Assembly: GCA_006212045.1 (NCBI GenBank)
Contig: PZPK01000004.1
Coordinates: forward strand, 124,001-188,000
DNA length: 64,000 bases
Origin: Oleiphilus sp.
GTDB taxonomy: Bacteria > Pseudomonadota > Gammaproteobacteria > Pseudomonadales > Oleiphilaceae
Direction: 5' to 3'
Shown here: piece after piece, positions 16,314-27,441 of the stretch
Position numbering within the stretch: the stretch's first letter is position 1
How the letters are laid out: every line of letters begins with the position of its first letter
Position numbers and translations under genes: made by a program
The notes under the pieces: generated by a model
What the model was told of the DNA's origin: nothing
Databases searched by the model: none
The model's input: the letters and a program-made list of their open reading frames with translations, nothing else

Positions 16314-18071
16314 ATGAAAGACTCTATTGCAGCACATATTGAACGATCCATCGACCACCTGAAGCAACAGGGACTGATCCCGGAATCTGTCTCTGCGCGC
16401 ATCAATGTTGATGCCACCAAAGACAAAAAGTTTGGCGATTTCGCCAGTAACGTCGCATTGGTACTGGCCAAACAAGCGGGTATGCCACCACGTGCGCTGG
16501 CTGAAAAAATTGTGGCGGACCTGGAATCCGGATCCCAGAACGACATTGAAAAGATGGAGATTGCCGGCCCGGGCTTTATCAACTTCTTTGTCAGCAATGC
16601 CAGCAACTATACCGCACTGCAAGAGATCTTCGAGAAGACAGAAGCGTTCGGAAAATCGACTGTCGGCGAAGGCCAAAAATACCAGGTTGAATTTGTTTCA
16701 GCCAATCCGACCGGACCGCTGCATGTTGGACATGGCAGAGGCGCGGCATATGGCGCCAGCGTTGCCGACCTTCTTGAAGCGGCCGGATATCAGGTCGACC
16801 GGGAATACTATGTCAATGACGCCGGCCGTCAAATGAATATCCTGGCGGTCAGTGTCTGGATTCGATATCTGCAAGGGCAAGGGCTGGATTTTCCGTTTCC
16901 GGACAATGCTTATAAAGGCGACTATATTCTGGACATCGCGCAGCGACTGTCCGAGCGCTTTGGATCAGAGCTGGGCTGTTCAATCGAGCAGCTCAGTGAA
17001 GAGCTTCCGCTCGACGAGTCCCAGGGGGGCGACAAGGAACAATATATAGACGCCCTGATACAGCGTGCAAGACAGCTGTTGGGTGATCGTTATCAGGACG
17101 TGTTCAACCAGGGGCTGAACGCCATCGTAGAAGACATTCGGGAAGATCTTGGCGAATTTGGTGTGCACTACAACAACTGGTTTTCCGAAGCCTCATTGAG
17201 CGAAGATATCGAACAGGCACTGGAACGATTGCAATCAAAAGGCCATCTGTATGAAAAAGAAGGCGCCTTGTGGTTCCGTTCAACGGCCTTTGGTGATGAT
17301 AAAGACCGGGTAGTCAGGCGCGACAATGGCGAAACGACCTATTTTGCCTCGGATATCGCCTATCACATGAACAAATTCAAGCGCGGTTATGACAAGGTCA
17401 TCAATATCTGGGGCGCCGACCACCATGGCTACATTGCTCGGGTCAAGGCAGCCCTGCAGGCCATGGAACTGGACGCCGAAAAACTGGATGTTCGGCTCGT
17501 TCAGTTTGCCATCCTCTACCGCGGGCAGGAGCGCGTTCAAATGTCTACACGCAGCGGCTCATTTGTCACCCTCAGAGAGCTTCGCGACGAGGTTGGCAAT
17601 GATGCTGCCCGCTTCTTCTATGTCACACGTAAAGCCGAACAGCATATGGACTTTGACCTTGACTTGGCCAAGTCAGAAAGCAAGGATAACCCGGTCTACT
17701 ACATACAGTATGCCCATGCCAGAATCGCCAGCATGATACGCAAAGCACGGGATATGGGTGTAGAGTGTGACACAAGCGCAGGTATAGATTATCTGGGCAG
17801 CAATGGCACCGACAACGAGATTGATCTGGCGAAACGTCTTTCTATTTACCCAGAGACGCTGGCCACGGCAGCGACACAGTTGGAACCACATATGCTGACA
17901 CACTACCTGAGAGACCTGGCTAGCGAATTCCATACGTACTACAACGCGCACAAAGTGCTGGTTGACGATACAGAATTACGCAACGCGAGAATGACCTTGA
18001 GCCTTGCCGTCCAGCAAGTTATCCATAACGGACTGCGACTATTGGGTGTCAGCGCACCGAACGAGATGTAA
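16314..18071 (+). CDS. argS: Arginyl-tRNA synthetase
   Basis: A 585-residue class I aminoacyl-tRNA synthetase that charges tRNA-Arg. Visible are the N-terminal Add1 domain, the HIGH-type signature PLHVGHGRGAAYG, and the catalytic-core segments NVWGADHHGY-like (INIWGADHHGYI) and QERVQMSTRSG (KMSK-like loop), then the C-terminal DALR anticodon-binding domain ending in NGLRLLGVSAPNEM. The ATG at 16314 is preferred over an in-frame TTG three codons upstream. A small promoter-like sequence precedes it. Confidence 0.96.
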   Translation: MKDSIAAHIERSIDHLKQQGLIPESVSARINVDATKDKKFGDFASNVALVLAKQAGMPPRALAEKIVADLESGSQNDIEKMEIAGPGFINFFVSNASNYTALQEIFEKTEAFGKSTVGEGQKYQVEFVSANPTGPLHVGHGRGAAYGASVADLLEAAGYQVDREYYVNDAGRQMNILAVSVWIRYLQGQGLDFPFPDNAYKGDYILDIAQRLSERFGSELGCSIEQLSEELPLDESQGGDKEQYIDALIQRARQLLGDRYQDVFNQGLNAIVEDIREDLGEFGVHYNNWFSEASLSEDIEQALERLQSKGHLYEKEGALWFRSTAFGDDKDRVVRRDNGETTYFASDIAYHMNKFKRGYDKVINIWGADHHGYIARVKAALQAMELDAEKLDVRLVQFAILYRGQERVQMSTRSGSFVTLRELRDEVGNDAARFFYVTRKAEQHMDFDLDLAKSESKDNPVYYIQYAHARIASMIRKARDMGVECDTSAGIDYLGSNGTDNEIDLAKRLSIYPETLATAATQLEPHMLTHYLRDLASEFHTYYNAHKVLVDDTELRNARMTLSLAVQQVIHNGLRLLGVSAPNEM

Positions 18072-18110
18072 GCCAGACCAGCTACTGAACAATCACCTTC
18101 GGAACCTGCC

Positions 18111-18731
18111 ATGACCCGGGATTACGCCAAGCCCTCAACCACCCGCAAGAAAACGCCGGTACGAAAGAAACCGGCGCGTGCAACCGGGAAGACGCGCAAA
18201 GGGGCAGCGCCGCCACCTCCCCCACCCCCAAAACGTTGGAAACTTCTGGCAATTTTGCTGGCATTGGTGGCCGGCTTTGGCGCCGGCATTTATAGTCTGA
18301 CCCGGATCCCTGCAACACAGGCACCGGAAACGCCAAAGAAGAGCACTCAGTCCGGCACTAAAACCGGAGTCAAAACGACGCCTAAAACGTTACCGGAGCA
18401 ACGTTTCAAGTTTTATGATCTGCTGGAAGAGTCAGAAGTCATCGCCCCAAAGGTAGACACGTATACCTTTAAGGAAAAAAACAAGGACAATGATTTTTAT
18501 TATATGGTTCAGACCGGCTCCTTTCGTTCCAGCGTTGATGCTGAAAGGCAGAAAGCGACGATAGCATTCCAGGGTCTGAAAGCCAGTATCAAACCGGTAC
18601 AGAATGATCAGGGAACACTCTGGTACCGTGTGATGACAGGCCCGTTCTATTCTCGTACCGAAATGAACAGTGCGCTCGACAAGCTGGTGGCCATCAATAT
18701 TGAGCCATTGGTCAAAAAGGTCAAAAAGTAA
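18111..18731 (+). CDS. SPOR-domain inner-membrane protein, FtsN-like
   Basis: A 206-residue bitopic protein: basic, proline-rich cytoplasmic N-terminus (a run of seven prolines near residue 35), one transmembrane helix at about 44-63, a Thr/Lys/Pro-rich linker and a C-terminal SPOR domain (about 125-205; YYMVQTGSFRSSVDAE and WYRVMTGPF). SPOR domains bind septal peptidoglycan. The position argS-SPOR-hslVU is the same as in Pseudomonas and in enterobacteria, where ftsN lies next to hslVU. A late divisome role is inferred, but the sequence is shorter than E. coli FtsN (319 residues). Confidence 0.8.
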   Translation: MTRDYAKPSTTRKKTPVRKKPARATGKTRKGAAPPPPPPPKRWKLLAILLALVAGFGAGIYSLTRIPATQAPETPKKSTQSGTKTGVKTTPKTLPEQRFKFYDLLEESEVIAPKVDTYTFKEKNKDNDFYYMVQTGSFRSSVDAERQKATIAFQGLKASIKPVQNDQGTLWYRVMTGPFYSRTEMNSALDKLVAINIEPLVKKVKK

Positions 18732-18758
18732 CTCCCGTCAAGATAATCCCGGCTGACG

Positions 18759-18786
18759 CTTGAATTTATTCGACTCGCTCCCATAT
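18759..18786 (+). promoter_or_regulatory. Candidate sigma-32 (heat-shock) promoter for hslVU
   Basis: CTTGAAT (18759-18765), a 13-base spacer and TCCCATAT (18779-18786) match the RpoH consensus CTTGAAA-N11-16-CCCCATNT at six of seven and seven of eight bases. It lies about 200 bases before the hslV ATG in a 252-base gap otherwise without a gene. hslVU is a classical sigma-32 operon in E. coli, which supports the call. Confidence 0.7.
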
Positions 18787-18983
18787 AGCCACATTCAAGC
18801 TCGAAGTCAGCAGCAGGTTAAAGGGCATGCATATGCTCCATGCGTATTCGTGTGCCCTTGTCGACCTGACAACGACAAACACTCCGGGTCCGGACTGGAA
18901 AACCCGACATACTCGGAGCAGGCATCAAGCATAAACGTCCCGGCTGCGGATGTAACATACAGAATCGTTCCAAGGAGATTGGC

Positions 18984-19511
18984 ATGACTACCATATTATC
19001 CGTCCGTCGTGGCGACGAAGTCGCCTTGGGTGGTGACGGTCAGGTATCGCTGGGCAACACCATTATGAAAGGCAATGCGAAGAAAGTGCGCAGACTGTAT
19101 CGGGATCAGGTCATTGCGGGCTTTGCCGGCGGTACCGCTGATGCATTCACCCTGTTCGAGAGATTCGAAGCCAAACTGGAAAAACACCAGGGACATCTGA
19201 TCAGGGCCGCCGTCGAACTGGCCAAAGACTGGCGCACAGACAGAGCTTTAAGAAGACTGGAAGCCCTACTCGCGGTGGCAGATAAAGACGCCTCGCTCAT
19301 TATTACAGGTAACGGAGATGTCATTGAGCCCGAGGATAGCCTGATCGCGATCGGGTCAGGCGGCCCTTTTGCCCAGGCCAGTGCGCGCGCTTTGCTGGAC
19401 AATACGGATCTGGGCGCACGCGATATCGTCGAGAAAGGGCTCAATATTGCGGCCGATATCTGCGTCTTCACCAATCACAGCCGCACCATCGAAGAATTGA
19501 AAACCCGCTAA
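18984..19511 (+). CDS. hslV: ATP-dependent protease proteolytic subunit HslV (ClpQ)
   Basis: A 175-residue threonine peptidase of the proteasome-beta fold. After removal of Met1 the chain begins [12 protein letters not shown], giving the N-terminal Thr nucleophile; [10 protein letters not shown] and [17 protein letters not shown] are family signatures, and [15 protein letters not shown] follows. It forms dodecamers gated by HslU and degrades misfolded cytoplasmic proteins. AAGGAG seven bases before the ATG is a strong ribosome-binding site. hslU begins 25 bases later, and a heat-shock type promoter lies upstream. Confidence 0.97.
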
Positions 19512-19536
19512 CGTTTTGCAAGAAGAGTTCACATCC

Positions 19537-20868
19537 ATGGCCAACATGACACCCAGAGAAATCGTACACGAACTGGACCAACACATTATCGGGCAAAGTG
19601 ATGCCAAGCGTGCGGTAGCCATTGCGCTGCGAAATCGCTGGCGCCGCATGCAGCTTCCCAACGAAATGCGCGAAGAAATTTCCCCCAAGAATATCCTGAT
19701 GATCGGGCCAACCGGTGTCGGTAAAACCGAAATTGCGCGGCGCCTGGCAAAACTCGCCGACGCACCATTCATCAAAGTTGAAGCCACCAAATTTACAGAA
19801 GTTGGCTACGTTGGACGCGATGTTGAATCGATCATACGGGATATTGCCGATCACGCGCTCAAGATGTACCGCGAAAAGGAAATGGCCCAGGTTGCGACCC
19901 GCGCTGAAGACGCCGCCGAAGATCGCATTCTGGACGCACTGCTGCGCCCTGCCCGCGACACGTCTGTGGTAGATGAACAGATACAGAACGAATCCTCAAC
20001 GCGTCAGATATTTCGCAAGAAGCTTCGCGAAGGTGATCTCGACGACAAGGAAATTGATATTGAAGTGAGCTCAATGCCGGTAGGGGTCGAAATCATGGCG
20101 CCCCCAGGCATGGAAGAGATGAGCAACCAGCTACAGAATATTTTCTCGAATATGTCAGGCGAGAAAAAACGCAGCAAGAAAATGAAAGTCTCTCAGGCCT
20201 TGAAGCAACTTAAAGAAGAAGAAGCTTCCAAACTGATCAATGAAGAGGACATCAAAACCAAAGCCCTCCAGGCGGTGGAGCAGAACGGCATCGTGTTCCT
20301 CGATGAAATTGACAAAGTGGCAAAAAAAGCCGAAGGCAGCTCTGGCGATGTCAGTCGCGAGGGCGTCCAACGCGACCTTCTGCCATTAATTGAGGGCTGC
20401 ACGGTGACCACCAAACTGGGCAGCATCCGCACGGACCACATACTGTTTATCGCCTCTGGCGCCTTTCATCTGGCCAAACCTTCCGATCTGATTCCTGAAC
20501 TGCAAGGCAGGCTGCCTATCCGGGTCGAATTAAAAGCACTGTCGGCCGACGACTTCAAACGTATCCTGTCCGAACCCAATGCCTCATTGATAGAACAATA
20601 TATGGCACTCATGCGTACAGAAGGGGTGGATCTGGAATTTGCGGATGATGCGCTCGAAAAAATTGCACATATCGCTTGGAAAGTGAATGAGAAAACCGAG
20701 AATATCGGCGCCAGACGTTTGCACACAGTTCTGGAGCGCCTGCTTGAAAGTATCTCCTTCGAAGCAGGCGACAAAACGCAGGGCAACGTCCGGATTGATT
20801 CAGCCTATGTGGAATCGCAGCTGGATGACCTGTCCGAAGATGAAGATCTGAGCCAGTACATTCTCTAG
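19537..20868 (+). CDS. hslU: ATP-dependent protease ATPase subunit HslU (ClpY)
   Basis: A 443-residue AAA+ unfoldase partner of HslV. Walker [13 protein letters not shown] (about 57-68) and the pore loop segment [10 protein letters not shown] follow the N-terminus [17 protein letters not shown]. The I domain (about 110-240) is rich in charged residues. Walker [13 protein letters not shown] and sensor [11 protein letters not shown] are present, and the C-terminus ends LSQYIL, the tail that inserts into HslV. The ATG at 19537 gives the family N-terminus; a TTG seven codons upstream is rejected. Confidence 0.97.
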
Positions 20869-20875
20869 CGAGCGT

Positions 20876-21238
20876 ATGATGTCCCCAGCACCCAAGCGCG
20901 TGACAGTGAAAGCCGGCTCAGGCCTGCTTTGTCTGGAATACGATGACGGAGAATTCGAACTCAGTTTTGAATTTCTGCGGGTGCATTCTCCTTCCGCAGA
21001 AGTCCGCGGTCACGGGCGCGGCTCGGAAGTGCTGCAATCCGGCAAAAAATACGTTGTTCTGGAAGGCATCGAACCCGTCGGCAACTACGGACTGAAGCTG
21101 ATCTTCAATGACGGGCACGATTCCGGCATCTATACCTGGGATATCCTGAGAGACTATGCGCTCAATCAGGACGTCCTTTGGCATACCTATCTGGAAAAAC
21201 TGGCGCAAGCCGGCCAGGCAAGAGAGCCTCATTCCTGA
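20876..21238 (+). CDS. DUF971 / gamma-butyrobetaine hydroxylase N-terminal-like protein
   Basis: A 120-residue protein of the DUF971 (GBBH-like N-terminal) family, seven bases after hslU and thus likely cotranscribed. Recognisable stretches are FEFLRVHSPSAEV, VGNYGLKLIFNDGHDSGIY and TWDILRDYA. In eukaryotic hydroxylases this fold precedes the dioxygenase domain and binds zinc, but the metal cysteines are not seen here. The gene follows hslU in many proteobacteria, suggesting a link to proteostasis or Fe-S handling; its function is unknown. ATG at 20876 or 20879 is possible. Confidence 0.85.
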   Translation: MMSPAPKRVTVKAGSGLLCLEYDDGEFELSFEFLRVHSPSAEVRGHGRGSEVLQSGKKYVVLEGIEPVGNYGLKLIFNDGHDSGIYTWDILRDYALNQDVLWHTYLEKLAQAGQAREPHS

Positions 21239-21408
21239 AGCTGCCTCTCAAAATAATCGACACTTTATAGTTGTGTCAAAGCACCGTGCAAACATCTTCG
21301 CAAGCTTCGATAAAACGTTTCTATTTACTGGTGATCCGAACATGGCAGGGCTGCGTATTTATCCCTGACAGATGATCACTTCTGTTTTGAAGTGCACACC
21401 CTACTTTT

Positions 21409-21440
21409 GCTGCCGATCACGCTTTACGGCAGCCTTTTTT
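21409..21440 (+). terminator. Terminator of the hslVU-DUF971 operon
   Basis: Stem GCTGCCG/CGGCAGC with an 11-base loop followed by CTTTTTT, about 170 bases after the DUF971 stop. Confidence 0.7.
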
Positions 21441-21487
21441 ACAAACAACGTGCTTTTCCGGGGCTCTAGCCAGATCCTGAAACCTTA

Positions 21488-23140
21488 TCAATTGATCGCG
21501 TACTGATAATGCACCGGGAGTCCCTTACGCATTACGATTACCGAGACTTTTTCTTCCGTTTCCAGTGCGTCAAACAGGTTATTCTGGGCTTCGTGTACCC
21601 ACTCCCCGTTGACACGCATCACGACATCCCCTTCCCTTAAGCCCAGTGTCTGATAAAACTCACTGTCCTTCACACCCTTCAGTTTCAGCAAATGTACACC
21701 TTCCACCTCCAGCTCACCTGGCTGAAAATGTGCCCTGAGCGATGATTGCGCAACCAATTGGTCGTCCAGCCATTCGCGCGACAAGGGCGACTCTCCTTTG
21801 GGTGCAACCACACCGCGATACTGATACTCAATATCTGCAGGCGGCAACTCATCCGTATCCAGTACATTTCCGGAAGCAATCACCGCCTGCTCGATGTCAT
21901 TCAGGCGCTTTTCCAGATCCGGCTGATCAATCTCATTCAGGGGCTCATCTGTGGCCGCTGCCTGGTTTTCCGCGACACCAGTGTTTCCATGCGCAAGCCT
22001 TAGCTTTTCCTTTTTCCCATGATTATCCAGCACGACATGGCGTGGATGAATTTCCAGCAGAATCACATTCTCCAATACAAGGTCCGCAACCTTGTAATCC
22101 CCGGTCTCATCCGACTCGGTTTTCAGAATCAGCGCACGTGCGCTTGCTCCATTGTCATCGTTACCGGCTCCAATCACGCCTTCCAGACGAAGAGGCAGCG
22201 CTGTATCTTCCAGTTTCTCTTCGCCAGACATTGAACCGGCCATTCCGGTACCACTATCTGCCCCACTTGCCGCCAGGCGTTCAAGCTCCTGATCAATAAA
22301 GAAACGCAGCACATGCAGGTCCTTGGGGCCGTTCAAATACAAACCATTAATGAGTGTCACGGGGACATTACTGAAGCCAAGCTCCTGGGCAAGCGCAACA
22401 TTGCCACGAATGGCGTTCTCAACCTCGGCGCTATCGAGACAGGCTTCGAACCCGGCCTGGTCCAGTTTCAACTGCTTTGCGATACGCAGATAAGCGTCTT
22501 TGTTCAGATTATTGGGATCAACCCATAAGGCTTTGTGAAAACGCTCAAACTCACCCCCTGAAAATGCGCAACGTGCCGCCTGACTGGCTCCGACGGAAAA
22601 GCGATGAAAACGCAACGGGAAATCATAATAAACGAAGCGAATACGATCTCCATAAATTTGTTCCAGCTGTGCATAGGTGTCCTGCATGCCAACACAATGG
22701 GTGGATTGATAATTGCAAAATACGGACAGTTCAATTGGCGCATCGGAGCGCCCTTTCCCCGGTTGAGTGCCGGGACGCGACCAATCCAGTCTGGGGGGTT
22801 GTGGCGGGCGGATCAACACTTCCACAGAAGCATCCTCTGTCGGCTTACCCTGAAGCTTCTCATCCAGGTGCTCTGCCAACGCCAGACGTCGCGTCTCATA
22901 CTTTGCCCATTCCAGTTTAAAAAGCTCCAATTGTGCGCGCTCGTCGATATCACTTTGCAGGATATCCTTGCCGCTGATTCTGGCAACGACAGGGTTGTCC
23001 AAAAACGCTGGCGCTGCCGAAAGAGAAGCAGCTGGATCAGAACCGCTGTCGGGCCCTGCGCTATCAGAATTGGTATCATGGCTACATGCAGCCTGCATTA
23101 AAGAAAGAAAAAGAAGGGTTAAGACGATGGTCACTCGCAT
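21488..23140 (-). CDS. Lipoprotein fusing a DsbA-like domain to GspC-like HR and PDZ domains
   Basis: A 550-residue protein. A signal peptide ends in LMQAAC (lipidated Cys19), followed by a Ser/Asp-rich linker. A helical segment at about 50-98 begins VVARISGKDI, like the N-terminal helices of SurA and of DsbA-family chaperone fusions. A DsbA/thioredoxin-fold domain (about 133-290) has PIELSVFCNYQSTHC where the family has FSDFQCPYC, so the catalytic CPYC reads STHC. The resolving Cys149 and the cis-proline loop NVPVT are kept. A GspC-type homology region (about 314-382: LRLEGVIGAGN, VLENVILLEIHPRHVVLDN) and a PDZ domain (about 478-548) follow, as in type II secretion GspC. No T2SS genes are adjacent. 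A fixed redox or structural role, perhaps capturing exoproteins, is inference. Confidence 0.75.
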   Translation of the reverse strand: MRVTIVLTLLFLSLMQAACSHDTNSDSAGPDSGSDPAASLSAAPAFLDNPVVARISGKDILQSDIDERAQLELFKLEWAKYETRRLALAEHLDEKLQGKPTEDASVEVLIRPPQPPRLDWSRPGTQPGKGRSDAPIELSVFCNYQSTHCVGMQDTYAQLEQIYGDRIRFVYYDFPLRFHRFSVGASQAARCAFSGGEFERFHKALWVDPNNLNKDAYLRIAKQLKLDQAGFEACLDSAEVENAIRGNVALAQELGFSNVPVTLINGLYLNGPKDLHVLRFFIDQELERLAASGADSGTGMAGSMSGEEKLEDTALPLRLEGVIGAGNDDNGASARALILKTESDETGDYKVADLVLENVILLEIHPRHVVLDNHGKKEKLRLAHGNTGVAENQAAATDEPLNEIDQPDLEKRLNDIEQAVIASGNVLDTDELPPADIEYQYRGVVAPKGESPLSREWLDDQLVAQSSLRAHFQPGELEVEGVHLLKLKGVKDSEFYQTLGLREGDVVMRVNGEWVHEAQNNLFDALETEEKVSVIVMRKGLPVHYQYAIN

Positions 23141-23247
23141 GATCGGGGCTCTTCAAAATTCGGTTATTGTTATTTCATTCGCACATGGCAGGTCGCCTGA
23201 AGAAGTGCGTTCAGCGAAAGAAAAAAGGGAATACATCCCCCACTGAC

Positions 23248-23286
23248 AGTAAAAAGGTTAACAGACCGGCCGCCGGCCTGTTAACC
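23248..23286 (-). terminator. Terminator after the SGNH hydrolase gene
   Basis: A long inverted repeat with outer arms GGTTAACAG/CTGTTAACC (23256-23264 and 23278-23286), one mismatch and inner CCGG/CCGG is followed on the minus strand by TTTTTACTG. Confidence 0.75.
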
Positions 23287-23324
23287 AAATTTCCATTTCG
23301 TTTTTGTTATTGTTTCACCGGAGC

Positions 23325-24266
23325 TTATTTATCCGGATTGTGGTTCCACATCAGGTTGGCCGCAGTATTCTGGCCCTGAAGGCTTGGGTGGAAGCAGTCA
23401 CCGCCATCAATATCGTTTCTCTGGAAACTGAAAGTTCCGACAGTGGACGCATTTTCACCCTGGTAGCTGGCAACAACTTCAACACCATTGGTGCCGTTGT
23501 AAGAAGCCGCTTCTTCCGCCAGGATCTCGTTGTAACGCTGCTGCTTGGCCTCGATCGCTGCCAGACGCTGAGCGCTTGATTCACCATTCATGGTGCCACC
23601 ATAGGTCGCAACACTACAGATATCATAAGAGTTCCAGATATTTTCGCAGCGGATACGATAAGTCGTAGCCTGCTTGGCAAGACCAGCTGCGCGCAGATCC
23701 TGCACGCGTGGAACACCGCCCAGATAGACAGTTGAACCGCTAGGCAAACCCGATACCAGTGTATTCAGACCCGCCTGCACGGAAGAACGCCATTGTGAAT
23801 CAGTGTACAGTGGGTTGGTACAATTTGCCGGATCCGTACAGTCACGGTTACAGATATCGTTTCCGCCCAGCAGCACTTCCACATGATCAGGCGTCGTGCT
23901 TTGCGCTACGATGTTAGCCGCTTGGGTCGCAAAGTTATTGGAACCACCACGCAACTCTGAGCCTGAGGCCGCAGCGCTCTTGTTGGCCGAAATAGAGCCA
24001 TTGAGCTGCTTGTACTTGTCATGCACAGAGTTCACACTGGAATCCCAGCCATCAAACCAGGAATGCTCTGGCTGATCACCACCCAACAGGCAGAACAGAT
24101 CCCAGAACCAGTAGTTATAGCGGCAGTCAGCGGCGAAGCCCATGGTAATACTATCGCCCGCTGCTGTAGTTTTCGAAGGTAAGGCACTGGCTTGCATGCT
24201 CGCCAGAGATAAACAAATTGCGATGGCGGGCGCAACGGCCCATGAAGCTAATGTTTTTATTCTCAT
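23325..24266 (-). CDS. Secreted SGNH/GDSL-family hydrolase
   Basis: A 313-residue exported esterase or lipase-like enzyme. The signal peptide ends near SALP (residue 29). Block I is AAGDSITMG (nucleophile Ser39), block III is LLGGNDIC (Asn136), and block V is DGGDCFHPS (Asp290 and His293), completing the catalytic set. Eight cysteines remain in the mature protein (48, 59, 139, 143, 149, 207, 217, 291), suggesting several disulfides and stability outside the cell. Substrate is unknown; related proteins are annotated as extracellular lipases. It is monocistronic, followed by a terminator and preceded by a 333-base intergenic region shared with a divergent AraC gene. Confidence 0.85.
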   Translation of the reverse strand: MRIKTLASWAVAPAIAICLSLASMQASALPSKTTAAGDSITMGFAADCRYNYWFWDLFCLLGGDQPEHSWFDGWDSSVNSVHDKYKQLNGSISANKSAAASGSELRGGSNNFATQAANIVAQSTTPDHVEVLLGGNDICNRDCTDPANCTNPLYTDSQWRSSVQAGLNTLVSGLPSGSTVYLGGVPRVQDLRAAGLAKQATTYRIRCENIWNSYDICSVATYGGTMNGESSAQRLAAIEAKQQRYNEILAEEAASYNGTNGVEVVASYQGENASTVGTFSFQRNDIDGGDCFHPSLQGQNTAANLMWNHNPDK

Positions 24267-24599
24267 GTTATTATCCTAGATTTGTTAATTGCTGTATTCC
24301 CTCATTAAGTCGACTACTCCCTGATTATGTCTCGCTACGACTTCGATTCAGCGAGCGTCGGGAGTCTATCAGTTAAATAGATAAACAGGACAGATGACTC
24401 TTTCACGACAATGGCAGGCTAAGCTAATATGCCAATAATCATATCTTTAAGGATAAATACATAAGCCTGAAGAACATCAAGGTGGCGAGCGTGGAAGAAC
24501 CTCGCATAAAAGTGAAGATTCCCTCACATTTTATCTTTCAAGGCATAGACAGCGATTCGAAAGACGCCATAGAATGACTCAATAACAATAATACAGGTA
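24267..24599. other. Intergenic region between the SGNH hydrolase and AraC genes
   Basis: This 333-base AT-rich gap separates two divergent genes and must hold promoters for both. A 6-bp inverted repeat CTCGCT-N13-AGCGAG (24331-24355) could be a regulator site, but it is weak. No reading frame with a credible start was seen. Confidence 0.3.
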
Positions 24600-25625
24600 A
24601 TGTCGCTTATGCTGTTTTCCGAATACAGTCCTCTGCGCTTCGCCAACGCCTATGCGATCCTGCTGAAACGGTATCTGCACAAATTCACCGGAAATTCGCT
24701 GGATACGGGGGAAACCTCGTCCATCAACCTTCGCCAGCTTGACCAATTGGTTCGTGATATCTACCAAACCACGGGCGACCTCGGATTCGGATTAGACATA
24801 GGCAGAAATATTCACCCCTCCGATTATGGCATTGCCGGCTACGCCATGCTGAACTGCGCAACCTTGTTGGATGCCATCAAAACATCCAACCAATACCGCC
24901 ATAAACTTAAATCCGGGTTCAGTACCGAATTTGAAATCAGCGAACGCTGCGTACGCTATCGAGTGACCAATGCGGACGATCTGATTTGTCTGTTTCCGAT
25001 GGTTGAGCTGGATTTCGCATCAGGCTTGCAGTTTGCCCGCTTGCTGGTAGGCCCACAGCAGGCGAAAAACATTCGATTGCAATCAGTCAGATTCAAACAT
25101 CTCCCCCTTCGCCCGGTTGATGATTATGAAAATTTCTTCGGTTGCAAGGTGCACTTTGATGCAGAGCAGAATGTCGTAGAGCTACACAGGGACAGCGCAG
25201 ACATTCCAGTCCACGGAGCTAATCCGAAATTATTCAGCCTTTTCGACAAGAAACTTGGCAATTACTTCCTTAACAAAAACACCAAAGGCTCACTTCCCGA
25301 CCAGGTAAGGTATTTTCTCAAACAGCATATTGATCATGAGTTCCCCAATCAGGAGCAGGTCGCCAAACATTTTTTTATGAGTGTCAGCTGCCTGAAAAAC
25401 CGGCTGAAAAAACTCGGAACGAGCTTTCAATTCATACTGGACGAGGTGCGCGGGGAAGAAGCGAAACGGCTACTGGCAGACTCCGACAAACCCATCAAGG
25501 AGATTAGCTCCGGGCTCGGTTTTGCCAATCAAAGTGCATTCAATCGCGCATTCAAGCGATGGACCGGAGCAAATCCGCGCGACTATCGCAAACACTGTAA
25601 CGAAAACAGTTCGATCCCCGCTTAA
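24600..25625 (+). CDS. AraC-family transcriptional regulator
   Basis: A 341-residue regulator with the OruR/ArgR-type N-terminal ligand-sensing domain (about 15-195; DLGFGLDIGRNIHPSDYGIAGYA is shared in spirit with that group, seen at 56-80) and a C-terminal double helix-turn-helix (about 240-335; VAKHFFMSVSCLKNRLKKLG, then LGFANQSAFNRAFKRWTG and NPRDYRK). It probably binds DNA near its own gene or the following SDR/acyl-CoA dehydrogenase pair, which starts 88 bases downstream on the same strand. Effector unknown. The ATG at 24600 has AGG a few bases upstream. Confidence 0.88.
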   Translation: MSLMLFSEYSPLRFANAYAILLKRYLHKFTGNSLDTGETSSINLRQLDQLVRDIYQTTGDLGFGLDIGRNIHPSDYGIAGYAMLNCATLLDAIKTSNQYRHKLKSGFSTEFEISERCVRYRVTNADDLICLFPMVELDFASGLQFARLLVGPQQAKNIRLQSVRFKHLPLRPVDDYENFFGCKVHFDAEQNVVELHRDSADIPVHGANPKLFSLFDKKLGNYFLNKNTKGSLPDQVRYFLKQHIDHEFPNQEQVAKHFFMSVSCLKNRLKKLGTSFQFILDEVRGEEAKRLLADSDKPIKEISSGLGFANQSAFNRAFKRWTGANPRDYRKHCNENSSIPA

Positions 25626-25713
25626 ACACCTTTCGCTTTATTGGTATTCTTTCAGTCTTTCTACAGTTCATTTCTGCGTAGCCTGAATCGCTGCGCCCAT
25701 ACAGAGGTAAATC

Positions 25714-26475
25714 ATGAACCTGAATAACGTCCCTGCAATTGTCACCGGCGGCGCATCCGGATTGGGCGAAGCGACGGCCCGCATGCTGGCCGAACACGGC
25801 GCCAAAGTCACTATCTTCGACGTACAGGCAGACAAGGCTAACAAGGTTGCCCGGGAAATCGGCGGACTGGCTGTCAGCTGTGATGTCACCAATGCGGAGA
25901 GTGCAGAACAGGCATTTGCGCAGGCCCGCGAGGCTCACGGAAATTGCGGTATCGCCGTGAATTGCGCCGGTATAGGTGTACCAGCCAAGATTCTCGGCAA
26001 GGAAGGACCGATGGCCATGGACTTTTTCAACAAGGTCATTCAGGTGAATTTATGCGGTAGCTTCAATATCCTACGCTTGGCGGCTGCCGAAATGCAGGAT
26101 CGCGAAGCCAATGCCGACGGCGAGCGTGGCGTTATTATTTCCACAGCCTCCGTGGCGGCTTATGAAGGACAAATCGGACAAGCCGCTTATTCCGCCTCGA
26201 AAGGCGGCATTGTGGCCATGACCTTGCCTGCCGCAAGGGAACTGGCCCGCTATGGCATCCGGGTACTGGCGATCGCCCCCGGCCTGTTTATGACCCCCAT
26301 GATGGAAGCTTTGCCTGAAGCCGCACAGGAGAGCCTGGCCGCCACACTTCCCTTCCCTCAGCGACTCGGCCAGCCCAGCGAATATGCACGAATTGTCAGG
26401 GAAATGGTTGAAAATCCGATTTTGAATGGTGAAGTCATCAGAATCGATTGCGCCTTACGCATGGCGCCACGCTAG
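25714..26475 (+). CDS. SDR-family oxidoreductase, 3-hydroxyacyl-CoA dehydrogenase type II-like
   Basis: A 253-residue classical short-chain dehydrogenase. The cofactor motif TGGASGLG (11-18) with Asp36 of IFDVQ suggests NAD(H). NCAGIG follows, and the catalytic Ser/Tyr/Lys lie in ISTASVAAYEG and YSASK (Tyr159, Lys163). The stretch EGQIGQAAYSASKGGI is characteristic of the HSD10-like 3-hydroxyacyl-CoA dehydrogenases of fatty-acid beta-oxidation. It is followed nine bases later by a short acyl-CoA dehydrogenase-like gene, which fits acyl-CoA oxidation. The true substrate cannot be read from sequence. Confidence 0.88.
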   Translation: MNLNNVPAIVTGGASGLGEATARMLAEHGAKVTIFDVQADKANKVAREIGGLAVSCDVTNAESAEQAFAQAREAHGNCGIAVNCAGIGVPAKILGKEGPMAMDFFNKVIQVNLCGSFNILRLAAAEMQDREANADGERGVIISTASVAAYEGQIGQAAYSASKGGIVAMTLPAARELARYGIRVLAIAPGLFMTPMMEALPEAAQESLAATLPFPQRLGQPSEYARIVREMVENPILNGEVIRIDCALRMAPR

Positions 26476-26484
26476 GGGCCGCCG

Positions 26485-27441
26485 ATGTGGACAAACAGCG
26501 CCGCATTTCTGGATAGACTCCTCACCGAGCAGCGACCTGAAAAGCCTGTCACGATCGGAAAATGGTTTCGGGACTTCAAAGCGCAAGTACCCAGTCACTT
26601 TTCTTCAATCGAGCGTGCGGCCCTGGGAGGCCGAAGGGCGCGCTGTGTCGGCCATGCATTTACTGCCGGATACCAGTCCGCACTGGAACATCTGTTCGCG
26701 GCGCACTTTGACCCGGGGTCGCCAGCTCTCGCGTCTTTCTGTGTAAGCGAAACCAAAGGCAATCACCCGCGCGCGATCGAAACCTGCCTGAGTCAGGCAG
26801 AAGCTACGTTTATTCTGTCCGGAGACAAAACCTTTGTCTCCGGCGCGCACGAAGCCCAACAACTATTTGTCGCCTGCCGGGAGCATAGTAACGAACAGCA
26901 AAGACCCAATATCAAGGTCGTTGTGGTGTCGGCAAGAGCTCCCGGGGTAAAAATAGAGTCTTTACCCACGCTCCCTTTTATTCCGGAGGTCAGTCACGGT
27001 CGCGTGAATTTTGATCAGGTTGAACTGGACCCCGTGAACCTGCTGGCCGGCGATGGTTATTCTGAGTACATCAAGCCATTTCGTACTTGTGAGGACCTTC
27101 ACGTCATGGCATCGGTACTGGCCTATGTTCTGGGGGAGATCATCTCGGAACACCTCCCGAAGTCGCTGGCAGAAGACGCCCTGGGAGCGTTAGCCGGCTT
27201 TATGTCATTGAGTCATATAGACCTCAAACACCCCGGGAGCCATCTTGCGCTGGCCGGCTTGCGTCGCCAGCTCAATGCCGTTCTGCAACGTTTCAAAGCT
27301 GAACTGGCCAGCTGCAATACTGCGTTACTTTCAGATTGGGAGCGCGATTCCGCTTTACTGAAAGTCGCCGGAAAAGCACATGAAGCGCGCACAAAAAAAG
27401 CCTGGGAGGCATATCTTTCCTCCCAGGCTTTGTCTGAATGA
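26485..27441 (+). CDS. Short, divergent acyl-CoA dehydrogenase-like protein
   Basis: A 318-residue protein recognisable by the central beta-domain of acyl-CoA dehydrogenases: FCVSETKGNHPRAIET (about 88-103), then FILSGDKTFVSGAHEAQQLFVACR, and GRVNFDQVELDP (about 172-183). The family is usually 380-600 residues; here the N-terminal helical domain is only about 85 residues and the C-terminal helical domain is shortened, so FAD binding or catalysis may be altered. No catalytic glutamate could be assigned. It is nine bases downstream of the SDR gene and likely cotranscribed. A minus-strand terminator for the convergent gene overlaps its 3' end. Confidence 0.65.
   Translation: MWTNSAAFLDRLLTEQRPEKPVTIGKWFRDFKAQVPSHFSSIERAALGGRRARCVGHAFTAGYQSALEHLFAAHFDPGSPALASFCVSETKGNHPRAIETCLSQAEATFILSGDKTFVSGAHEAQQLFVACREHSNEQQRPNIKVVVVSARAPGVKIESLPTLPFIPEVSHGRVNFDQVELDPVNLLAGDGYSEYIKPFRTCEDLHVMASVLAYVLGEIISEHLPKSLAEDALGALAGFMSLSHIDLKHPGSHLALAGLRRQLNAVLQRFKAELASCNTALLSDWERDSALLKVAGKAHEARTKKAWEAYLSSQALSE
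27393..27431 (-). terminator. Terminator of the Cache-like gene, embedded in the 3' end of the convergent CDS
   Basis: Stem AAAGCCTGGGAGG/CCTCCCAGGCTTT (27419-27431 and 27397-27409) with a nine-base loop is followed on the minus strand by seven T in total. On the plus strand only a short TTTG follows. It therefore serves the minus-strand gene that ends at 27482, although it lies inside codons of the plus-strand gene. Confidence 0.75.

Follow-up and report, generated by a model that had tools for sequence, protein, structure and literature searches.

A lipoprotein that joins a DsbA-fold domain with an altered active site to GspC-type modules is encoded beside an SGNH hydrolase in Oleiphilus and other bacteria

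Introduction

The clamp protein of the type II secretion system (T2SS), known as GspC, OutC or EpsC, is the closest described relative of one half of the protein reported here. According to PMC3169554, the homology region (HR) of GspC binds the N0 domain of the secretin GspD, and GspC and GspD meet via their periplasmic domains. The HR of GspB also binds the N-terminal domain of the secretin, according to PMC9239104. With regard to the second module, PMC12369372 describes the EpsC PDZ domain as fully required to secrete one known substrate, VesB, and the GspC PDZ domain as dispensable for all but a subset of the substrates. Separate from these machine components are the membrane-anchored T2SS chaperones LipB and CpaB, which are encoded next to their effector in the account of PMC4713064. 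Within Table 1 of the same source, no chaperone is named as a DsbA- or PDZ-type protein, and several entries are given only as 'hypothetical'.

Here we describe a 550-residue lipoprotein encoded in a 64,000-nucleotide stretch of DNA from Oleiphilus sp. (the window; contig PZPK01000004.1, positions 124,001 to 188,000). Like GspC, OutC and EpsC, the lipoprotein carries an HR and a PDZ domain in the same order, and profiles of the two groups align collinearly. It differs from them in having a lipobox cysteine, Cys19, right after the N-terminal helix in place of a transmembrane anchor, in the addition of a DsbA domain, in the occasional loss of the HR within its family, and in being encoded beside a single putative client. 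It shares with Lif/LipB and CpaB a gene that adjoins a putative effector gene and an N-terminal membrane anchor; unlike theirs, this anchor is a predicted lipid in 30 of 32 family members rather than a transmembrane segment, the protein carries GspC modules, and its fold is one that we take to be unrelated to that of Lif. The Com1/ScsC/alpha-DsbA group has in common with the lipoprotein the fold, Cys191, Cys234 and the cis-proline. In contrast to that group, the lipoprotein has C142-x3-S-x2-C149 where a CXXC centre would be, has lost the acid at position 140 and is fused to HR-PDZ. The separate parts are known already, as is the general concept of a T2SS chaperone encoded next to its effector; what appears to be new is the way the domains are combined, the strict pairing with a hydrolase gene and the fixed C-x3-S-x2-C centre. 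In searches of the open-licence PMC literature, we found no description of a DsbA-HR-PDZ protein.

Results

Domain layout of the lipoprotein. The original prediction, made from the sequence alone, read one intact frame encoding a lipobox, a DsbA-fold domain, a GspC-type HR and a PDZ domain. The frame runs uninterrupted on the minus strand with no internal stop (Table 1); read on the plus strand, the region contains stops. One profile search returned a match that extended a few codons beyond the stop codon of the window gene. A frameshift or artefact is ruled out by the 32 open members found across several genera, and the DsbA and GspC segments each have matches, as set out below.

Table 1. Features of the locus, in window coordinates
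Feature	Position	Strand	Basis
Gene of the 550-aa lipoprotein	21488..23140 (stop codon included)	-	ORF list; 31 further open homologues
Lipobox Cys19, predicted lipid anchor, residue +2 = Ser	23084..23086	-	Aligned Cys in 31/32 members
N-terminal strand pair and long helices, aa 51-96	22853..22990	-	AlphaFold2 model
DsbA/Com1/ScsC-type domain, aa 127-283	22292..22762	-	Pfam, fold search, PDB sequence search
Remodelled active site, C142-N-Y-Q-S146-T-H-C149	22694..22717	-	C142, S146 and C149 in 32/32
GspC-type homology region (HR), aa 311-382	21995..22210	-	Pfam T2SSC; 7oio/6hcg/2lnv; hhalign
Low-confidence linker, aa 383-449	21794..21994	-	pLDDT <50 at 386-410 and 425-442
GspC-type PDZ domain, aa 450-550	21491..21793	-	NCBIfam; hhalign; all 101 columns occupied in 32/32
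Intergenic terminator-like hairpin with 14 pairs and a T tail	23256..23286	-	Pattern scan
Partner gene, encoding an SGNH hydrolase of 313 aa with eight conserved Cys and, by eye, a signal peptide	23325..24266	-	Pfam; alignments; family neighbour

The assignment of the DsbA fold was borne out by Pfam (Thioredoxin_4 at aa 127-283, E 8.6e-14; DSBA at aa 138-279, E 6.2e-13) and by a fold search, in which the domain resembled Com1/ScsC/BdbD-type proteins and superposed on 3gyk (Z 22.6, rmsd 2.0, 170 residues aligned) and 7rgv (Z 22.1, rmsd 1.8, 171 aligned). The VIA-align and Foldseek lists for the lipoprotein were taken up by this domain and say nothing on the HR or PDZ. For the HR, the second half of the T2SSC profile, which is the HR part of GspC, scored 29.9 bits against a cut-off of 27, and the HR of a 31-row family profile matched the solved GspC/OutC chains 7oio (E 1.3e-7), 6hcg (E 1.3e-5) and 2lnv (E 2.3e-5). 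The HR and PDZ together aligned collinearly with eight canonical GspCs picked for possessing a PDZ (hhalign probability 99.1, E 6.2e-19, 184 columns), and the claimed GspC-like pair of modules is thus upheld. The top NCBIfam match of the PDZ (aa 480-550) was GspC_delta at 57.5 bits, under the equivalog cut-off of 150, and TIGR01713 scored 42.3 against a cut-off of 101.6. The AlphaFold2 model had a mean pLDDT of 82; in ten-residue blocks the DsbA and PDZ domains were mostly above 90 and the HR lay between 62 and 93. Besides the linker in Table 1, values below 50 were confined to residues 20-46, 296-308 and 326-330.

Other thioredoxin-lipoprotein and thioredoxin-PDZ proteins exist. Among the NCBIfam matches below cut-off were the Rcas_1661 thioredoxin-like (seleno)lipoprotein at aa 129-284 and a Trx7/PDZ (seleno)protein at aa 494-544, within the PDZ. 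Longer DsbA relatives have, by eye, a similar-looking region ahead of the DsbA domain. Rfam gave zero matches in the window.

A remodelled active site. The sequence STHC at residues 146-149, the cis-proline loop (Val259-cisPro260) and the lipobox Cys19 all lie where the original prediction placed them. That prediction had also noted a serine in place of the first CXXC cysteine, which proved general: position 146 is Ser throughout the 32 members, and in DsbA relatives without HR-PDZ positions 146 and 149 are the CXXC cysteines in 35/35 rows. This comparison set came from the same searches, and its 35 rows represent 32 distinct genes (G014, G024 and G034 occur twice each). The cysteine said to remain in the centre, Cys149, is indeed invariant in the family (32/32). 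It is not the only one, however: a second cysteine, Cys142, has been gained and the acid at position 140 lost family-wide, and the invariant Cys142 had been overlooked. In the relatives, position 142 is Ala (Thr in one row) and never Cys, and position 140 is Glu save for Lys in two; in every family member position 140 is hydrophobic (Val, Ile or Leu). By the usual numbering, we take position 140 to be the buried acid of DsbA and thioredoxin, and position 142 to lie four residues ahead of the first CXXC cysteine. Cys191, Cys234 and Pro260 are invariant in the family, and these two cysteines and the cis-proline are also present in 35/35 rows of the relatives; the residue preceding the cis-proline is Val, not Thr, in 31 of the 32 members. 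Three positions of the catalytic site therefore differ as a set and are fixed throughout the family, a pattern that speaks for a replaced centre and against decay; judged by conservation, the active site is a replaced centre rather than the product of random loss. In the AlphaFold2 model, the central strand ends at residue 142 and a helix with Cys149 in its first turn begins at 147, so that Cys142 and Cys149 could be near each other in the modelled fold.

Family membership and modular core. A search of 58 relatives gave matches in 35 genomes, six with a full-length or near full-length copy and the rest matching in no more than the DsbA or the HR part. Named genomes contributed 24 loci, in Oleiphilus MAGs, 'Hellea' MAGs, Microbulbifer, Exilibacterium and Hahella. 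Together with the order search, these sources yielded 31 distinct rows, to which G502, from outside the order, was added to make 32. Matches to the DsbA part only were left out of the family; these accounted for 8 of the 19 genomes over threshold in the order (profile positions 80-292 of 537) and for 6 of 8 in the class sample (51-316 of 515). The two 'Hellea' loci (L040, L041) bear an alphaproteobacterial name, yet cluster with an Oleiphilus copy. A plasmid-borne module was considered and rejected: tblastn against PLSDB returned 48 records, none spanning 80% of the protein, and the ten matches listed fall within aa 86-337, which covers the DsbA part and its surroundings.

The DsbA part is missing from none of the 32 members, and the PDZ columns are full in all of them. 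The HR is mostly absent in three (L033, L036 and L060) and partly so in L071; because three members have lost it, the HR is not essential, and on these alignments the DsbA and PDZ domains seem to form the core of the family. When 16 lipoprotein copies from 15 genomes were scored with T2SSC, ten were over the Pfam cut-off, three were under it and in three the domain was not found. A cysteine aligns with the lipobox cysteine in 31 of 32 members (L048 has Tyr), and that of G502 lies outside any lipobox by eye, which leaves 30 counted lipoproteins. A residue other than Asp after the lipidated cysteine directs sorting to the outer membrane (the +2 rule). Since Asp occupies this position in only 2 of the 30, and another residue in 28, most members would go to the outer membrane.

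The partner hydrolase. The neighbouring hydrolase, which the original prediction had passed over, is the likely client. It matched Lipase_GDSL (E 2.7e-8, Pfam), and its GDS (G37, D38, S39), GGND (G134, G135, N136, D137) and D-x-x-H (D290, H293) blocks are invariant in 30 hydrolase rows. Six cysteine positions are conserved in 32/32 sequences and two more, 143 and 149, in 31/32; both of the latter are gone in L070, and their joint loss suggests that the two pair. The hydrolase model is weak (pLDDT 69.5). With this low-confidence model as query, Foldseek gave nine matches with E <1e-3, all of them chains of acyloxyacyl hydrolase (AOAH), and the hydrolase profile had four PDB matches, again all AOAH, the best at a weak E of 0.0043. 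The window hydrolase thus resembles AOAH in its three motifs and in its best structure and profile matches; it differs in its length of 313 residues and in that Pfam found no saposin domain. Secreted enzymes often carry extra domains, and some hydrolases of this family have additional N-terminal ones: PPC in L032, L040 and L041, and an InlB-repeat-like domain in G502.

The hydrolase ends in N-P/T-D-K exactly in 23 of 32 sequences, with variants in the others, and this C-terminus is a possible PDZ recognition tail. The hairpin in Table 1 separates the two genes, so the hydrolase and lipoprotein may be expressed at different levels; the pattern scan found seven terminator-like sites in the stretch compared with 3.7 in shuffles. 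Divergent from the hydrolase gene lies what appears by eye to be an AraC-type regulator (window 24600-25625, plus strand), and the pairs of L031 and L033 may have regulators of similar appearance close by.

Gene pairing and co-occurrence. The pairing of lipoprotein and hydrolase is well shown. A hydrolase gene lies beside the lipoprotein gene in all 24 named-genome loci and is adjacent, with a gap of at most 337 bp, in 30 of the 32 members. The exceptions are L034, where an HD-domain gene intervenes and the gap is 889 bp, and L080, where 6.1 kb separate the two genes. The link is kept in both gene orders, six tandem with the hydrolase first and 26 facing. When 17 loci of different lineages were scanned for common neighbours, with flanks as long as each locus permitted, to a maximum of 8 kb, the hydrolase was the sole neighbour family common to more than four and was present in all 17; one family of unidentified type occurred in four loci, another in three, and no others in more.

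The two families also occur together at the level of genomes. A search of 390 genomes from the order detected the full-length lipoprotein in 11, and exactly these 11 also gave the hydrolase (Fisher 1.4e-21, ignoring phylogeny), which by genus corresponds to 5 of 143 (Fisher 2.2e-9, again ignoring phylogeny). The thresholds were E 1e-30 or better for the lipoprotein and E 1e-20 or better for the hydrolase, with the best three or four candidates scored per genome. Relaxing the threshold to E 0.001 in 254 of these genomes added one hydrolase match, partial and at E 4.9e-6 (G218); the hydrolase family is therefore well separated. A class sample of 274 genomes had both proteins in the same two, the window's genome and G502, and among 299 genomes sampled from the phylum the hydrolase profile matched two (G000 and G051), both of them bearing the pair. 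Genome G002 contains two pairs, and in both of them the two nearest relatives of the lipoprotein coincide with those of the hydrolase. The distance matrices of the partners correlate (r 0.75; 0 of 5000 permutations), a result that common descent alone could yield. For G502 and L070 the distances give the lipoprotein and the hydrolase different nearest relatives, yet these two members group together in either tree.

Connection to type II secretion. The original prediction had suggested a link to exoprotein secretion, which gained support from two observations. Canonical GspC and GspD scored over curated cut-offs in 15 of 15 pair-bearing genomes, a result that shows compatibility and not enrichment. 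In G502, gspA (GspA_C39-like, E 5.5e-6) and gspB (T2SSB, E 4.7e-13) lie immediately upstream of the lipoprotein gene on the same strand. G502 is the only case in which the lipoprotein was seen beside gsp genes; none were recognised by eye near the pair in the window stretch (ORFs at 18000-27000) or in L031-L036, L080 and L081. The description of the protein as a lipid-anchored GspC holds insofar as its HR and PDZ are homologous to those of GspC. It does not hold in the sense that the lipoprotein is GspC itself, a reading rejected on the grounds of equivalog scores under cut-off, a lipobox in place of a transmembrane anchor, a position outside the gsp operon and separate canonical GspCs in all 15 genomes; three of the 32 members, moreover, lack most of the HR.

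In the window's genome, the gspC genes lie on contigs C28 and C79, away from the lipoprotein gene, and encode a PDZ-bearing protein of 289 aa (L102) and one of 213 aa without a PDZ (L116). The two loci are L132 on C28 and L037 on C79; one has the PDZ-bearing gene beside gspD, and the other has the PDZ-less gene near gspE-F-G-like genes. A single GspD in this genome (G000) is over cut-off. Directly after the PDZ-less gspC lies a gene for a Peptidase_C93 transglutaminase-like cysteine proteinase (L037, 9172-9840, minus strand). The canonical GspCs of the Microbulbifer group (L107-L113) are 227-261 aa long and, by eye, end without a PDZ in 7/7 cases, so in this group the lipoprotein may hold the sole GspC-type PDZ. 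As a general account, the idea that the lipoprotein supplies a PDZ missing from the genome's GspC is true only in part, since the window's genome has the PDZ-bearing L102.

Discussion

We propose that the lipoprotein is probably a dedicated, client-specific T2SS chaperone or adaptor for the neighbouring disulfide-rich SGNH hydrolase. The domain make-up, the invariant altered active site, the near-perfect gene pairing and the presence of a T2SS are consistent with such a role. Points that count against it are the hairpin between the two genes in the window, the PDZ-bearing canonical GspC of the window's genome, the three members with little of the HR, the two that seem not to be lipoproteins, and the restriction of gsp neighbours to G502 among the loci inspected. 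The hydrolase would be exported by Sec to the periplasm and bound there by the lipid-anchored DsbA-fold domain. This domain has no canonical CXXC oxidase centre; going by the residues at the site, it should not act as a normal oxidase and would work mainly as a client-binding domain, either foldase or holdase. The HR-PDZ half would then bring the loaded complex to the secretin entrance, the HR, where present, contacting the N0 domain of GspD and the PDZ contacting either the client or a part of the machine. Release of the hydrolase to the outside would follow. A more specific version of this proposal, which we put forward tentatively, is that the lipoprotein is a client-specific 'portable GspC': its domain with the C-x3-S-x2-C centre would complete disulfide folding for a single AOAH-like lipase, and its own HR-PDZ would pass this enzyme on to the secretin.

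The main rival explanation keeps the T2SS docking modules and assigns a different chemistry to the active site: Cys142 and Cys149 would form a displaced CX6C redox pair that oxidises, reduces or isomerises the client, making the lipoprotein a dedicated disulfide enzyme. The two cysteines are invariant in 32/32 members, Cys142 is absent from the DsbA relatives in all 35 rows (32 distinct genes), the model would allow the pair to come close, and the client has eight conserved cysteines. Loss of the buried acid should weaken thiol reactivity in DsbA and thioredoxin chemistry, however, and the corresponding position is hydrophobic in every member; a purely structural disulfide, moreover, would look identical. 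Given these opposing points, we regard a displaced redox pair as possible but rather doubtful. Engineered trapping mutants have a Ser and Cys arrangement like that of Ser146 and Cys149, both invariant here, and the original prediction had mentioned substrate trapping. In a monothiol trap of this kind, Cys149 would form a mixed disulfide with the client and hold it until secretion. Such a mechanism leaves the co-conserved Cys142 unexplained, the conserved client cysteines are even in number so that none need be free, and Cys149 is presumably the counterpart of the normally buried cysteine; we consider it unlikely.

Two further alternatives were considered. Lipoprotein immunity partners of phospholipase effectors exist, and strict pairing of a lipid-anchored protein with a lipase-like enzyme would be expected if it blocked the hydrolase in the periplasm and thereby shielded the cell's own membranes. 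A simple inhibitor would not be expected to carry a GspC-type HR and PDZ or to be encoded beside gspA-gspB, as in G502, and we give an immunity function little credence. It is also conceivable that the lipoprotein leaves the cell along with the hydrolase and holds the enzyme at the cell surface, and the non-Asp residue after the lipidated cysteine in 28/30 members fits the outer-membrane sorting that this would entail. According to PMC3169554, however, GspC and GspD meet via periplasmic domains, so the HR-PDZ half would be expected inside the cell, and a surface anchor seems very improbable.

How the T2SS recognises folded clients is an open question. In the chaperone/adaptor reading that we favour, HR-PDZ modules sit on a separate protein that is tied to one putative client gene, and the two-gene module isolates the recruitment step in a form amenable to deletion, swapping and testing in culturable Microbulbifer. 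The family also offers a natural, family-wide exchange of the DsbA CXXC centre for another fixed cysteine arrangement, and its hydrolase suggests that acyloxyacyl hydrolase may have relatives in bacteria. If the 'portable GspC' reading is true, folding control and secretion recruitment would be joined in one lipid-anchored protein, which would represent an undescribed class of T2SS accessory factor.
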